This document shows, piece after piece, positions 4,385 to 43,896 of a DNA stretch of 64,000 bases. Positions within the stretch are counted from its first letter, which is position 1. Each line of letters starts with the position of its first letter. The notes under the pieces are model-generated. The model saw only the letters and a program-made list of their open reading frames with translations. It made no database searches and was not told where the DNA came from. The stretch spans positions 1 through 64,000 of the forward strand of contig JAMXLO010000064.1 in assembly GCA_024280945.1 (NCBI GenBank), given 5' to 3'. The DNA comes from Acetobacteraceae bacterium. GTDB taxonomy: Bacteria > Pseudomonadota > Alphaproteobacteria > Acetobacterales > Acetobacteraceae. The position numbers and the translations under genes are program-made.

Positions 4385-5482
4385 TCAAAGCCCTTCCAAC
4401 AGAGCCGACGCGGTGAACACCCGCGGCAGACAGTCGATATCGTGAACCAGGTAAAGCTCCTGGTCAGTCCCGTGCTGTTCAGGTATCGTCATGATCTGCC
4501 CGGCCGAGGCGCGCGCCAAGACCTCGATCATGTTTGTCGGACATGCCGCCAACAGGGTCGATACACCCGAGGGAAAACGGCCCGCGTTGATCTCCATAAG
4601 AGCGGGGTTCCCGTCAGACCTTTCCTTGAATTCTACGATGAAGGCTCCCGACGCACGGTCCTCGAGTGTTCGTATGGCGTCGAGAGCAATCCGCAGCACT
4701 TCCGGCGCCACGACGGTCCTCGCCAGATTGGTCAGCGAAAATGTTCCGCTTGGGTTGTTGCCGGCCGCAAAGTAACTCAGCGCCTCTGTCACCTGCGCCA
4801 GCAGCACCTGGCCGCGATACCAAACGCTGGTCACGTGGTAGTGCCGACCCGGCAGGTATTCCCCCAGAGTAAAGTCGGACACCTGTATTCCGCGCAGATC
4901 CCGCCACTGCGTGATCCAGGAGCGGGCCTGGTCGACGTTCGTTACGGCTGTTGCCCCTAGCGACAAAGATCCTCGGCGGACGCGGCACCACAGGACCCCA
5001 TCGCCCTCGAAACGGGCGAATATTCCCTCGAGGTCGTCGAGGCTGCTGACCTCATAAAATCGCGGGACCGGAATACCCCTGTCACGAAAGAAGACATTCA
5101 GCGCATGCTTGTCCTGGCAAAGATCGACCGTCTTCCGGCTTGGCAGCAGCAGATCGAACGGAAATCGATCGCGTGAGTCAGACAGCGCCTTCACAACGCT
5201 TTCGTCGGTGGCGATGATCAAATTGATCCGATCGCGTGCGACGATGTCCAATATAGCATCGACGAATTCGCCGCCTGTCGGCACCGGAACGACGTAGTTC
5301 AGGTCGGCAAGCGACGCCTTTATGGTGAACCGATCATGGTTCACTCCCACGATTACCGGCATTGGCGTCATGGCCCGGAGAGCGCGCATCAGGTTCCCGC
5401 TGGCACCTGACCCGGCCCTGGTGATAAGGGCGCGGATATCTCGATCGGTCAAAGGCGCGAGCCGGTCATGTGTTGTCCTCAT
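4385..5482 (-). CDS. ATP-grasp carboxylate-amine ligase-like protein
   Basis: 365 residues. A Rossmann-like pre-ATP-grasp region (about 15-110) is followed by an ATP-grasp domain (about 120-320). Visible active-site candidates are E208 in GEYLPG, E284 in FIVEFKE and the metal pair E297/N299 in LMEINAGRF. This arrangement resembles carbamoyl-phosphate synthase large-subunit-like and peptide-ligase ATP-grasp enzymes, which activate a carboxylate as acyl phosphate and join it to an amine. The substrate is not evident. It heads a minus-strand operon whose next genes encode two very small proteins, which leaves open that one is a peptide substrate. It starts at an ATG about 115 bp downstream of the rarA stop. 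Confidence 0.7.
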   Translation of the reverse strand: MRTTHDRLAPLTDRDIRALITRAGSGASGNLMRALRAMTPMPVIVGVNHDRFTIKASLADLNYVVPVPTGGEFVDAILDIVARDRINLIIATDESVVKALSDSRDRFPFDLLLPSRKTVDLCQDKHALNVFFRDRGIPVPRFYEVSSLDDLEGIFARFEGDGVLWCRVRRGSLSLGATAVTNVDQARSWITQWRDLRGIQVSDFTLGEYLPGRHYHVTSVWYRGQVLLAQVTEALSYFAAGNNPSGTFSLTNLARTVVAPEVLRIALDAIRTLEDRASGAFIVEFKERSDGNPALMEINAGRFPSGVSTLLAACPTNMIEVLARASAGQIMTIPEQHGTDQELYLVHDIDCLPRVFTASALLEGL

Positions 5483-39608: not shown

Positions 39609-39615
39609 AACCAAT

Positions 39616-39636
39616 TGCGAGTCATTCGCATTCGCA
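39616..39636 (+). promoter_or_regulatory. Fur-like operator upstream of hemP
   Basis: TGCGA-GTCAT-TCGCA is a palindrome (39616-39630) followed at once by another TTCGCA half (39631-39636). It differs from 41578-41598 at only two of 21 positions. Both copies precede genes linked to iron or haem, so an iron-responsive regulator such as Fur is inferred. Confidence 0.6.
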
Positions 39637-39647
39637 GGAGAGGCTCT

Positions 39648-39857
39648 ATGACCGATGAGCACCGGCTGCTCTGTGGCCGTACCAGCGACGCCCGGTGGGA
39701 CGCCCGGTGGGACGCCCGGTGGATCGAGGCCCCTGTTCACCGCGCAATAACCAGCAAGGACCTATTGGCCGGGGAGCATGTGATCATCATCACGCATGGC
39801 CAAGAGGAATATCGGCTCCGGCTGACCGCGTCGGGAAAGCTGATCCTGACCAAGTAG
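39648..39857 (+). CDS. hemP: Hemin uptake protein HemP
   Basis: 69 residues from the ATG at 39648, preceded by AGGAGAGG at 39636-39643. The C-terminal half ITSKDLLAGEHVIIITHGQEEYRLRLTASGKLILTK matches HemP (S..ll.g...I.H.g..Y.LR.T..gKLILTK). HemP proteins are small and accompany haem uptake; in some bacteria they activate haem-receptor genes. Residues 14-25 are a triple DARW repeat encoded by three identical 12-base units. A Fur-like box lies in the leader. Confidence 0.85.
   Translation: MTDEHRLLCGRTSDARWDARWDARWIEAPVHRAITSKDLLAGEHVIIITHGQEEYRLRLTASGKLILTK
39687..39722 (+). repeat. Triple 12-bp repeat inside hemP
   Basis: GACGCCCGGTGG is repeated exactly three times (39687-39698, 39699-39710, 39711-39722), encoding DARW-DARW-DARW. 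Copy number could vary by slippage without breaking frame. Confidence 0.95.
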
Positions 39858-39945
39858 CACACGCCCGCGTTCAGTGCTGTTGCGCCTACGCAGGTAGCCA
39901 GGCGCGCAATCCCGAAATTGGTCAATGAGGGGGAAAGACCAAAGA

Positions 39946-41367
39946 ATGCACGGCTCGACGACACGCCATTTCGCCATCATCGCCTGGGTTGCCTCCGGCC
40001 TGTTGTGGTCTGGAACCGCTACGGCGCAGAGCGAACAGGAACCTTCATTCACAACCGGTCTGTGGACACGAGGCAACCTGCTGGGTGACGCTGGCGGTGT
40101 TCGCTCCGGGCTCTGGAATGTCGGTATCACCATCGGGATCCAGGACATCAACGAAGTCTGGGGCAACGTGTCTGGTGGCGTGCGACGTGGCGCGGCTTAT
40201 GACGGGGTCACGCTGCTGAGCGTCGGCCTCGACACCCAGCGCGCCTTTGGCTGGGAGGGCGGCACATTCAACGTCAGTGCCTGGAACATCCGGGGCCGCA
40301 ACATAGCCACCGATAACCTGCTCAGCCTGCAGACCCCCAGCGGGATACTCGCCGCGGACACGACGCGATTTTGGGAGATCTGGTACCAGCAGTCGTTTCT
40401 TGACGGCCGCTTCGACGTGAAGCTTGGACAACAGAGCCTCGACCAGGAGTTCATGACCAGCCAGAGCGCGTCGTTGTTTCTGAACACCGCCATGGGCTGG
40501 CCGGTCCTGCCCTCGTCCGACCTCTACGCCGGCGGGCCGGCCTATCCGCTGTCGTCGCTGGGGGTGCGGCTGCGCGGCCAGCCGGCGCCGGGGGTTACCG
40601 CGCTGCTCGGTGTGTTTCAGGACAATCCACCTGGCGGCCCGTTCAACGATGACGGTCAGTTGCGCGGCAGCACACGCTGGGGCGGCAATTTCAATCTCCG
40701 GACCGGAGCGCTGGTCATTGGCGAAATACAATACGCGCTGAACCAGCCCGGCAACGGCGATATGGCCTACGGCAGCACGCCCGGCGGACTACCTGGAACC
40801 TACAAGCTCGGTTTCTGGTACGACAGCGGGCCCTTCCCCGATCAGCGCTTTGACACCGCTGGCCTGCCGCTCGCCTCAGCTTCGAGCACTGGCGCCAACG
40901 CTCTGCTGTGGAACAACTTTAGTATATACGCGGTGGCTGACCAGATGGTCTGGCGTCCGTCTGAGGACAGTCCACGTTCGATCAACGTGTTTGCACGCCT
41001 GATGGGCGCGCCGGGCGATCGCAACCTGATCAACTTCAGCGTCAATGCCGGTGTCACGCTCAAGGCGCCATTCGAGGGCCGCGACGACGACAGCGTCGGC
41101 ATCGGCTTCGGTATCGCACGCATCAGCAACAGCGCGCGGGCGTTCGACAAGGATGTCGCGTTCTTCTCAGGGGTGCCGTTACCGATCCGCAGCACCGAGA
41201 CGTTCCTCGAACTCACCTACCAGATCAACCTCGCCCCCTGGTGGCAGGTCCAGCCCGATTTTCAATACGTGTTCAATCCGTCCGGAGGCATCGCCAATCC
41301 GAACGATCCGACGAGGCGCATTGGCAACGAGGCGATCTTCGGCCTGCGCAACACGATCACCTTCTAG
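39946..41367 (+). CDS. OprB-type carbohydrate-selective porin
   Basis: 473 residues from the ATG at 39946, which has AGGGGGAAAG upstream (39927-39936); an earlier ATG at 39925 adds seven residues. Signal peptide MHGSTTRHFAIIAWVASGLLWSGTATA. The mature protein is rich in alternating aromatic strands and ends NEAIFGLRNTITF, a terminal Phe as in outer-membrane beta-barrels. Segments GTFNVSAWNIRGRNI and LFLNTAMGWPVLPSSDLYAGGPAYPLSSLGVRL match the OprB family. Substrate is unproven. It lies 88 bp after hemP and may share its iron control. Its TAG stop is part of a CTAG palindrome. Confidence 0.88.
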   Translation: MHGSTTRHFAIIAWVASGLLWSGTATAQSEQEPSFTTGLWTRGNLLGDAGGVRSGLWNVGITIGIQDINEVWGNVSGGVRRGAAYDGVTLLSVGLDTQRAFGWEGGTFNVSAWNIRGRNIATDNLLSLQTPSGILAADTTRFWEIWYQQSFLDGRFDVKLGQQSLDQEFMTSQSASLFLNTAMGWPVLPSSDLYAGGPAYPLSSLGVRLRGQPAPGVTALLGVFQDNPPGGPFNDDGQLRGSTRWGGNFNLRTGALVIGEIQYALNQPGNGDMAYGSTPGGLPGTYKLGFWYDSGPFPDQRFDTAGLPLASASSTGANALLWNNFSIYAVADQMVWRPSEDSPRSINVFARLMGAPGDRNLINFSVNAGVTLKAPFEGRDDDSVGIGFGIARISNSARAFDKDVAFFSGVPLPIRSTETFLELTYQINLAPWWQVQPDFQYVFNPSGGIANPNDPTRRIGNEAIFGLRNTITF

Positions 41368-41439
41368 TGTGGTGGTTCCGCGAAGTTCGCCCGCTTTGTG
41401 GATCAGCCGCGGTAGCGGACTTCGGAACCACCACACTAG
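41364..41439. mobile_element. CTAG-bounded palindromic element (MITE-like) after the porin
   Basis: 76 bp from CTAG to CTAG. Left arm CTAGTGTGGTGGTTCCG (41364-41380), right arm CGGAACCACCACACTAG (41423-41439), an exact 17-base inverted pair. The centre holds GCTTTGTGGATCAGCCGC, shared with 13576-13620. TA at each edge fits the TA duplication of IS630/Tc1-type transposition into CTAG. The left TAG is the porin stop codon. Confidence 0.7.
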
Positions 41440-41452
41440 AATCAATAGCTTG

Positions 41453-41528
41453 CTAAGTGTCCTTATCGACTCGGAAGTCCGTATCCACGGGATCCACATC
41501 GTGACGGAGTTCCGAATTGGGACACTAG
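41453..41528. mobile_element. Second 76-bp palindromic element
   Basis: Edges CTAAGTGTCC (41453-41462) and GGGACACTAG (41519-41528) are near-inverted repeats, with a further CGGAAGTCCG / CGGAGTTCCG pairing inside. It has the same total length and the same TA-type edges as the neighbouring element, but a different sequence. A possible second family or a diverged copy. Confidence 0.5.
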
Positions 41529-41577
41529 CTCCTGAACCCGATCCAGCTCTTGAACCCGTTCGGAAGGGCGTAGTATA

Positions 41578-41598
41578 TGCGACTCATTCGCAATCGCA
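41578..41598 (+). promoter_or_regulatory. Fur-like operator upstream of the beta-propeller/efeB pair
   Basis: TGCGA-CTCAT-TCGCA (41578-41592) plus a third half ATCGCA (41593-41598), near-identical to 39616-39636. A promoter candidate, TTGAAC (41550-41555), 18 bases, TATATG (41574-41579), overlaps its left edge. Confidence 0.6.
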
Positions 41599-41611
41599 CG
41601 AGTGACTACGG

Positions 41612-42730
41612 ATGACCTCCTCCGTTCTGGCCAGCGCTGCCACCGCCTTTCTCGTGCTCGGAGGGGTCGGCGCCCAGGCGGCGGAACCCAAGAGCTTTCT
41701 CGAGGGCCTGCGCCGCCACAGCATGGTCACCTCCACCGTTCCCGCGAACGGCGACCAGAACCCGTACGCGATCGTCATCGCTCCGGTGACAGCCGGAAAG
41801 GTTCAGGCGGGCGATGTGCTGGTCGACAACTTCAACGACCGCAACAACCTGCAAGGCCTGGGCAGCACGATCGTTGCCTATCGGCCCGCAACCAAGCAGC
41901 TTCACCTCGTTGCCGCGATACCGCGCAACCTGCCGCAGTGTCCCGGCGGCGTGGGTCTGACCACCGCGATGACCATGCTGAAGACCGGCTGGATCATCGT
42001 CGGCAGCCTGCCCAGCCAGGACGGCACCACCAAGACCAAGGGTGATGGCTGCCTGATCATCCTCGATGCTCAGGGGAATGTCGCCGGCACGATCGCCGGG
42101 CCAAACATCAACGGCCCGTGGGGCAACATGGCGGTGATTGACAATGGCTCGACGGCGACACTGTTCGTCAGCAATACCGGCTTCGACGTCGGCCCTCCCG
42201 AGGACGAACCACCGGTGGTGAACAAGGCCACAGTGCTGCGGCTGGAGCTGTCCATCGCCGAAGGCAAGCCGCCCGTCGTGACGAGGCAGACCGTGATCGG
42301 CAGCGGCTTCGGCGAGCAGGCCGACAAGGACGTATTCATCATTGGCCCCACCGGCCTCGCGCTGGGCAAGGACGGGGCGCTCTACGTGTCAGACGCCCTA
42401 GGCAATCGCATCGCCGCAATACCGAACGCGGCGACACGGGCCGACAGTGCGGGGACAGGGCGCGAGGTCACCAAGGACGGCCTGCTCAAGCGTCCGCTGG
42501 CAATGACGACCGCCCCCAATGGCCACCTGATAGTGACCAACGGCCTGAATGGGCAGGCAGTCGAGATCGATCCGGTGACCGGGCAGCAGGTCGCCGCGCG
42601 CTGGATCGATGCCAACAAGGCGCAATCACCGCCCGGCAGCGGGGACCTGTTCGGCATCGCCATGACGCCATCTGGCGACGGCTTCTATTATGTGGAAGAC
42701 GAGGTGAACATGCTCGTCTTGGCGCATTGA
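41612..42730 (+). CDS. Secreted NHL/SMP-like beta-propeller protein
   Basis: 372 residues. Sec signal peptide about 1-23 (TSSVLASAATAFLVLGGVGAQA). The mature part shows repeated blade-like segments (GPTGLALGKDGALYVSDALGNRIAAI, RPLAMTTAPNGHLIVTNGLNGQAVEI, FGIAMTPSGDGFYYVEDEVN) typical of NHL or gluconolactonase-like propellers. Periplasmic. Its TGA overlaps the TTG start of the DyP peroxidase (TTGA), so the two are translationally coupled. A Fur-like box lies 14 bases before its ATG. Enzymatic role unknown; it could be a scaffold or donor for the peroxidase. Confidence 0.75.
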   Translation: MTSSVLASAATAFLVLGGVGAQAAEPKSFLEGLRRHSMVTSTVPANGDQNPYAIVIAPVTAGKVQAGDVLVDNFNDRNNLQGLGSTIVAYRPATKQLHLVAAIPRNLPQCPGGVGLTTAMTMLKTGWIIVGSLPSQDGTTKTKGDGCLIILDAQGNVAGTIAGPNINGPWGNMAVIDNGSTATLFVSNTGFDVGPPEDEPPVVNKATVLRLELSIAEGKPPVVTRQTVIGSGFGEQADKDVFIIGPTGLALGKDGALYVSDALGNRIAAIPNAATRADSAGTGREVTKDGLLKRPLAMTTAPNGHLIVTNGLNGQAVEIDPVTGQQVAARWIDANKAQSPPGSGDLFGIAMTPSGDGFYYVEDEVNMLVLAH

Positions 42731-43896
42731 GCGGTCGTCGCGCATTCCTTGGTTCAGCTGGCGGACTGGTCGCGGCGGCCGGCCTGTCCCGCGTCGCACG
42801 CGCTTCCGCAAGCACCTCGTTCTTTGGCGAGCATCAGGCCGGCATCGTGTCGCCGCAGCCGACACAGACCTATTTCGCCGCGCTCGACGTGATCACCAAG
42901 CGGCCGGGAGACATCGTCCGCATGTTCCGCGCCTGGACCGATGCGGCGTCCCGGCTGACAAGCGGTGACGAAGCCCCCGGAGACAGCGGCGAGACGCTGG
43001 GGATTGAGACGTCCGGACTCACGCTGACCTTCGGTCTCGGTGCCGGGCTGTTCGACGGCAGATACGGGCTGGCCGCGCACCGACCCGAGGCACTGATGGA
43101 CCTGCCCGGGTTCCATGGCGATCAGTTGGTGCCTGAGCGCAGCGGCGGCGATCTCTCGATCCAGGCATGTGCGGACGATCCGCAGGTGGTGTTTCACGCA
43201 GTGCGGCAGCTTGTCCGGCTCGCCGATGGTGTCGCCCGCGTCCGTTGGGCGCAGACTGGCTTTCTGCCCGACACGCCGAAGGACGCGACACCGCGCAACC
43301 TGATGGGCTTCAAGGACGGGACACGCAACGCACTCGACCACGCACGATTGGTCTGGGTCGGCGACGAAGGGCCCAGCTGGATGCGCGGTGGCAGCTATCT
43401 CGTGGTGCGCAAAATCCGCATGGCGCTCGAGCACTGGGACGTGACGGATGTCGACTTCCAGGAGGAAACGATCGGCCGCTCCAAGCGGTCCGGTGCGCCA
43501 CTTGGGAAGGAACGCGAGCACGACCCGCCCGACTTTGAGTCGATGGACGCGGACGGGAACCCGGTCATCGCCGAAAATGCGCATTTGCGCATGGCGGCGC
43601 CCGAGACCAATTCGGGCGTGCAGATCCTGCGCCGCGGCTATTCCTACAACGACGGGGCGAATTTCACCGCAGAGCGCTGGCCGCCATGGCGGCAAGGCAT
43701 CGAATACGACGCCGGCTTACTGTTCATGGCCTACCAGCGTGACCCGCGCACCGGTTTCATTCCGCTGTTCGAGAACATGGCTAAGCTGGACGCGCTGAAC
43801 CAGTTCACCACCCATGTCGGAAGCGGCCTGTTTGCCTGCCCTGGCGGGATCGCTCCTGGGCAGTTTCTGGCGCAGGGCCTGTTCGACGCGACATAG
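42727..43896 (+). CDS. efeB: Tat-exported DyP-type peroxidase, EfeB-like
   Basis: 389 residues from a TTG at 42727. The twin-arginine signal SGRRAFLGSAGGLVAAAG is at the very N-terminus. The DyP signature GFKDGT is at 194-199 with catalytic D197; H286 is the likely proximal haem ligand and R303 (ILRRGYSY) the distal arginine. EfeB is a periplasmic haem peroxidase of the EfeUOB iron system, also proposed to take iron from haem. No efeU or efeO is adjacent, so the acquisition role is inferred from the Fur-like box and hemP. Confidence 0.88.
   Translation: MSGRRAFLGSAGGLVAAAGLSRVARASASTSFFGEHQAGIVSPQPTQTYFAALDVITKRPGDIVRMFRAWTDAASRLTSGDEAPGDSGETLGIETSGLTLTFGLGAGLFDGRYGLAAHRPEALMDLPGFHGDQLVPERSGGDLSIQACADDPQVVFHAVRQLVRLADGVARVRWAQTGFLPDTPKDATPRNLMGFKDGTRNALDHARLVWVGDEGPSWMRGGSYLVVRKIRMALEHWDVTDVDFQEETIGRSKRSGAPLGKEREHDPPDFESMDADGNPVIAENAHLRMAAPETNSGVQILRRGYSYNDGANFTAERWPPWRQGIEYDAGLLFMAYQRDPRTGFIPLFENMAKLDALNQFTTHVGSGLFACPGGIAPGQFLAQGLFDAT

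Follow-up and report, generated by a model that had tools for sequence, protein, structure and literature searches.

The stretch of DNA analysed here (the window) comprises positions 1 to 64,000 of contig JAMXLO010000064.1 from an Acetobacteraceae bacterium (GenBank assembly GCA_024280945.1). Its forward strand carries hemP, followed by genes for an OprB-family porin, an exported beta-propeller and a twin-arginine (Tat)-exported, EfeB-like peroxidase of the DyP family, together with two boxes of Fur-like appearance. We consider it probable that porin, propeller and peroxidase act as a Fur-repressed iron-uptake front end, which would feed an exchangeable inner-membrane importer. The support comes from comparison with other genomes, which gave a shared Fur-type motif, a conserved gene unit, and neighbouring genes for ferric-ion ATP-binding cassette (ABC) transporters or for cupredoxin and FTR1 proteins.

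The unit was followed in two samples, namely 78 loci that encode the propeller, drawn from a single scan of 84,980 species genomes, and 150 genomes of the window's own family, the Acetobacteraceae. Porin, propeller and DyP genes lie together in 47 of the 78 loci, with only L061 departing from this order; a contig end cuts one of the three genes in L037 and in L050. Ten loci hold only propeller and DyP (three of them, L042, L045 and L069, at contig edges) and six hold only propeller and porin (four, L067, L078, L080 and L086, at contig ends; in L021 and L034 the sequence continues past the propeller gene without a DyP gene). Among the 150 family genomes, 33 encode the propeller and 30 a DyP with 54% identity or more; all 30 DyP genomes carry the propeller (Fisher P 1.7e-28, a value that ignores kinship among the genomes). 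One propeller genome (G007) has an extra DyP of 41% identity on a different contig. Furthermore, five genomes whose best DyP is 40–47% identical are without the propeller and have an FTR1 gene (30–38% identical) no more than about 2.2 kb from the DyP gene on its contig, which, judged by its genes, is the usual Efe arrangement. A mirror-tree comparison of the three proteins over 46 loci gave Pearson coefficients of 0.64–0.79, which are uncorrected for common descent and so carry little weight. Record titles assign the unit to Acetobacteraceae that are acidophiles or come from bogs and soils, and to Burkholderiales; Acidisphaera sp. L21, Acidocella aminolytica and Herbaspirillum sp. Sphag64 are among its carriers. 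In Paraburkholderia largidicola and Caballeronia sp. SBC1 (L155 and L156) it is carried by a megaplasmid and followed by FbpA- and FbpB-type genes. On this comparative evidence, porin, propeller and Tat peroxidase are a conserved unit. An earlier reading of the window from its sequence alone (the sequence-only reading) had expected four families to co-occur in relatives; this holds for the three just named but not for hemP, which lies 5' of oprB in only 3 of the 44 loci with enough sequence.

Control of the unit by Fur is suggested by the two boxes, both on the forward strand. Box 1 (19-mer 39614–39632; three half-sites at 39616–39636, TGCGAGTCATTCGCATTCGCA) scores 24.1 bits and lies 11 bases 5' of the hemP start, and box 2 (19-mer 41576–41594; three half-sites at 41578–41598, TGCGACTCATTCGCAATCGCA) scores 18.8 bits and lies 13 bases 5' of the propeller start. 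As had been read from the sequence, they differ at two positions only, 6 and 16. A 19-base motif trained on 36 loci without the window gave them the two highest scores of the 64 kb, box 1 ahead of box 2, and the third site scored 7.4 bits. The score of box 1 is above all 40 first-order Markov replicas of the window (mean maximum 13.5, top 22.4 bits); box 2 is strong by itself, yet within the chance range of the replicas, in which two sites in total scored at least as high. A de novo search from random-word seeds, covering about 480 bases near the porin start in 47 loci (window included), returned AATGAGAATNATTCTCATT, which we take to be the Fur consensus. Its log-likelihood was 266.5; three Markov-resampled sets, for which fewer seeds were used, gave 72.4, 74.9 and 73.6. 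A two-fold held-out test found a site of at least 14 bits in 22 of 41 loci and in none of the 436 control stretches taken from those loci. Outside the training set, all ten loci that begin with the propeller gene and have DyP and upstream sequence score 16–33 bits (L069, which begins at a contig edge, is not among them), and all 15 propeller-only loci score under 8 bits. A chance origin of the boxes was considered and rejected on the de novo motif, the window ranking and the held-out test. Thus the proposal of the sequence-only reading that these are Fur-type boxes is borne out by motif, ranking and held-out loci, and both look like members of a motif common across species. A scan for consensus sigma-70 promoters at both boxes found none; by eye, weak candidates can be seen at TTGACT 39580 with TACGAG 39603 and at TTGAAC 41550 with TAGTAT 41571.

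The genes that adjoin the unit in other genomes suggest what it might feed. When the neighbours in the 78 loci were clustered, four recurrent families related to transport emerged beside the three core ones, namely an ABC ATPase, a binding protein, a fused permease and a cupredoxin; there were also response-regulator and antisense clusters and a few more. ABC genes of the Fbp type (FbpA/HitA) adjoin the unit in 12 of the 78 loci and a cupredoxin gene does so in 10, never together. FTR1 follows the cupredoxin in three loci (L038, L051 and L087), and one genome (G003) has the order cupredoxin-FTR1-oprB-propeller at a contig end. The linked binding protein matches ferric-ion structures best, HitA (267 bits) and then FbpA, and its nearest NCBIfam models are phosphonate models, far under their cut-offs. 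The string NNYYW occurs in 10 of the 12 linked binding proteins, at what we presume to be the place of the FbpA iron tyrosines. At the level of whole genomes, the Fbp-type permease, counted at 57% identity or above (15 genomes), is tied to the propeller, being present in 12/33 propeller genomes versus 3/117 others, and FTR1 and this permease never coincide among the 33 (hypergeometric P 0.0076). These counts leave aside eight genomes with Fbp matches of 41–45% identity (two of them, G066 and G076, with the propeller), a partial FTR1 match in G134, FTR1 matches below 40% identity and a weak propeller match in G001. As far as gene families can tell, the neighbours point to the import of free iron, not of haem.

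This last point bears on the strongest of the alternatives, in which hemP, a haem or porphyrin porin, a deferrochelatase-type DyP freeing haem iron and a propeller partner would form a haem-iron unit, as has been reported of EfeB/EfeO and FepB/FepA. The hemP gene (39648–39857, forward strand, 69 residues; Pfam hemP 56.3 bits), the single copy found in its genome, stands directly behind box 1, and the closest solved relatives of the DyP carry the name deferrochelatase. Moreover, part of one published account (PMC3577903) credits iron release from haem to EfeB-type proteins and describes FepA and FepB as driving haem-iron use in E. coli. However, hemP seldom accompanies the unit, and the importers linked to the unit belong to the ferric-ion and FTR1 types; because of these two results, we have set the haem unit aside as our principal interpretation. 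A search of the 28 window open reading frames (ORFs) scanned with Pfam, the rest of the genome lying outside it, found no haem receptor or haem ABC genes near hemP. The absence of a TonB haem receptor, noted in the sequence-only reading, therefore stands for those 28 ORFs only. We regard a haem-iron unit as rather improbable. Of the distinct haem/iron unit with an outer-membrane channel that had been proposed, the iron unit and the channel survive; the haem part does not, given the three hemP loci and the ferric-ion ABC, cupredoxin and FTR1 partners. Two observations on hemP may be added. The 5' part of the gene contains, at 39687–39722, three tandem copies of the 12-base unit GACGCCCGGTGG, which encode a WDAR-type repeat, and in locus L021 (2936–12132) no DyP gene appears in the roughly 8 kb that come after hemP, porin and propeller.

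We were also able to characterize the three proteins of the unit. The porin gene runs from 39925 (or 39946) to 41367 on the forward strand, and its product matches Pfam OprB with 339 bits over model positions 1–372 of 372, a full-length domain, and the solved OprB 4gey with 88.5 bits. The DyP gene (42727–43896, forward strand) has a TTG start and encodes 389 residues with a twin-arginine signal and both the N- and C-terminal Dyp_perox domains. It scores 408.2 bits against the EfeB equivalog model TIGR01412, just below the cut-off of 428, and 310 bits against the solved 'deferrochelatase' 8rgs. Both domains, and the motifs GFKDG, AHLR and RRGYSY seen in the alignment with 8rgs, place it in the DyP family; we assume for these residues the usual roles of the GxxDG, His and RRGY motifs. 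The strict catalytic strings are found in the DyPs of relatives at 53/56 (GF[KR]DG-like), 38/56 (H[ILVM][RA]) and 36/56 (RRG[YF]), and in an uncontrolled count a string RR-x-[FLM]-[LIMVF] occurs within at most 105 residues around the DyP start in 56/56 loci. The propeller and DyP genes overlap at TTGA (42727–42730), exactly as the sequence-only reading had described.

The propeller gene (41612–42730, forward strand) encodes an exported protein of 372 residues that gave, by sequence, only a weak NHL match (22.1 bits) and, as a profile against solved structures, partial matches only. An AlphaFold2 model built from 44 sequences (mean predicted local distance difference test score 90.1, predicted template modelling score 0.88) is a six-bladed beta-propeller of the SMP-30/NHL class. 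Its closest fold is the lactonase RPA3624 (8djf; Z 29.6, root-mean-square deviation 2.4, 268 residues aligned). As all 973 aligned chains have Z of at least 8, the structural match shows the fold and not the function. Thirty alignment columns are invariant, 13 of them glycine, and C110 and C147 are at least 90% conserved. The likeness to lactonases, the name of the OprB family as carbohydrate-selective, and the presence of eutB and eutC 3' of the unit in the window would suit an iron-regulated catabolic unit, with a sugar or aromatic porin, an SMP-30-like lactonase and a DyP oxidase, that is under Fur only since the DyP needs haem. Against this stand the Fur motif common across species, the ferric-ion ABC or cupredoxin/FTR1 neighbours and the lack of any recurrent catabolic family among the identified neighbour clusters, and we think a catabolic role very unlikely.

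The rest of the genome of the window (6.42 Mb, 99% complete) was searched for further boxes and iron genes. When up to two mismatches are allowed, the box pattern occurs at 21 sites versus 4 for the reversed pattern, and the exact half-site pattern at 19 sites versus 10 for the reversed control. Several sites fall inside genes, and only the promoter-proximal ones were taken as informative; these adjoin a BFD-type ferredoxin gene and the gene for MbfA, an iron exporter (516.9 bits, cut-off 450). A further box lies at least 300 bases 5' of a bacterioferritin gene (221.6 bits, cut-off 125.6). A cupredoxin gene on contig C122, whose product resembles Brucella FtrB (8vuk, 55.9 bits), has a box of 13.3 bits just upstream of its start codon as we place it. 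An FTR1 permease gene (EfeU model 136.1 bits, cut-off 255) is found on contig C4, away from the unit; the FTR1 and cupredoxin genes are unlinked to each other and to the porin-propeller-DyP unit. The genome encodes one Fur-like and one Zur-like regulator, both under the cut-offs of their NCBIfam models. The boxes near mbfA and bacterioferritin, and the fact that DyP is a peroxidase family, might suggest that DyP and propeller protect the periplasm by detoxifying peroxide or excess ferrous iron, but the recurrent linked genes are importers and 47 of the 78 loci include the porin in the unit, so that we give protection in place of uptake very little credence.

Several results weigh against an iron-uptake front end. 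Nineteen of the 41 loci in the held-out test have no box of at least 14 bits, and the FTR1 gene on C4 has only a weak one (8.8 bits), with the exact half-site pattern 13 bases 5' of its likely start. Seven propeller-DyP loci away from a contig edge are without an adjoining porin, and the propeller stands alone in 15 of the 78 loci, from which it appears that the propeller can serve without porin or DyP. FTR1 is not enriched in propeller genomes (9/33 versus 34/117); it was therefore rejected as a genome-level partner of the propeller, for which enrichment had been expected. Neither importer is present in 12 of the 33 propeller genomes, and the propeller has the fold of lactonases. The titles of the propeller-only loci are actinobacterial, acidobacterial, planctomycete and similar, with one gammaproteobacterial. 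In one planctomycete record (L090, 7722–12695), several paralogues of the propeller stand side by side, accompanied by neither DyP nor porin.

If the unit is indeed an iron-uptake front end, Fur would leave both promoters when iron is scarce, and small iron species, which we infer to be Fe2+ or a small chelate, would pass into the periplasm through OprB. There the iron could be oxidised, collected or presented by the propeller and the Tat-exported DyP, and for the propeller we infer a role as stand-in for the M75 protein EfeO/EfeM of EfeUOB. The inner-membrane step would fall to whichever importer the genome has. In the genome of the window, the unlinked FTR1 permease with the FtrB-like cupredoxin would carry ferric iron inward, and in other species an FbpABC-type transporter would do so. 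A bolder proposal is that porin, propeller and DyP are a portable, self-standing cassette that docks onto unrelated importers (FTR1/cupredoxin or FbpABC), with the propeller as a new periplasmic iron protein replacing EfeO, and with the OprB family providing iron with a way through the outer membrane that needs no TonB; this we advance tentatively, as falling a little short of an even chance. The unit may commonly serve as an iron route under acidic conditions, and it looks like a widespread, little-noticed iron front end of acid-soil bacteria. It bears on the passage of iron through the outer membrane where no TonB receptor is involved, and on the role of EfeO beside EfeB, as these are natural genomes that seem to have a propeller in EfeO's place, and the same periplasmic pair beside two unrelated importers.

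Known systems offer several points of comparison. EfeUOB, as set out in part of PMC9174327, comprises EfeU, EfeB and EfeO, the last combining a cupredoxin with M75, and low pH stimulates the system. The unit in the window shares with EfeUOB (YcdNOB)/FepABC a Tat-exported EfeB-type DyP and predicted Fur control; further points in common are an EfeO-like cupredoxin and an FTR1/EfeU permease, the latter encoded at a distance in the same genome. The unit differs in that there is no M75 EfeO/EfeM, that propeller and OprB porin are in the operon, and that EfeU and the cupredoxin are unlinked. A canonical EfeUOB was rejected, as a search of the whole genome for M75 (EfeO/EfeM) returned 0 matches; in addition, the DyP is under the TIGR01412 cut-off and FTR1 lies outside the operon. 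The sequence-only reading had both efeU and efeO absent: for efeO this holds genome-wide, whereas efeU is absent only locally, given the FTR1 gene on C4. FtrABCD has likely counterparts in the FtrB-related cupredoxin and the FTR1 permease, which are adjacent in some relatives, but FtrABCD as described in the portion of PMC11966278 available to us has no DyP, propeller or porin. The best reading of these gene contents is that the unit resembles EfeUOB/FtrABCD, without EfeO, and would be a variant and not a member. The binding protein, fused permease and ATPase that adjoin the unit in relatives recall FbpABC/HitABC; such genes are not next to the unit in the window, and the best match in its genome to the linked permease is 30% identical. 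Furthermore, a section of PMC2631029 describes two cases from acidophiles: the Acidithiobacillus porin FeoP, which is of the OprB family and has a predicted Fur box near feoABC, and a Leptospirillum cluster of EfeU, cupredoxin and kelch genes. FeoP is like our porin, by description, in belonging to the OprB family and serving iron uptake under Fur, but its partner is FeoABC and not a propeller with a DyP. The Leptospirillum cluster likewise joins FTR1 and cupredoxin to a propeller-class protein, which is a kelch protein by description and not of the NHL/SMP-30 class found here, and that section mentions neither DyP nor porin. Thus, as far as these excerpts go, there are precedents both for an iron porin and for an EfeU-linked propeller. 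In the open-access literature, a scope that excludes most subscription journals, we found no description of a porin-propeller-DyP unit with exchangeable importers.

Finally, some features of the window and of its genome lie beside this argument. Between oprB and the propeller gene is a dispersed repeat (41364–41529, no strand assigned), which supplies the stop codon region of oprB and has 19-base inverted arms at 41362–41380 and 41423–41441. Among the 40 of 45 candidates that were scored, there are 22 further near-full-length copies at 79–88% identity and 2 at 72% (60 matches in the genome, many of them single arms), and the repeat is probably a small mobile element. The gap, taken from the stop codon of the porin gene to the first position of the propeller profile, spans 257 bases in the window versus 9–240 in 46 relatives (L061 aside). 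With the repeat inserted, box 2 may maintain Fur control of the propeller-DyP pair; the box need not be a consequence of the insertion, because six other loci have a box of at least 14 bits in the same gap. Elsewhere in the genome, a strong box (20.6 bits; L116, contig C141, 5219–5237) lies 21 bases 5' of a 79-residue ORF without a Pfam match, which is possibly an unrecognised member of the iron regulon. On contig C20 (L140), two box-like sites, at about 2045 and at 5178, flank two ORFs, one of them like a radical-SAM maturase by eye and the other of 264 residues with a signal-like start.

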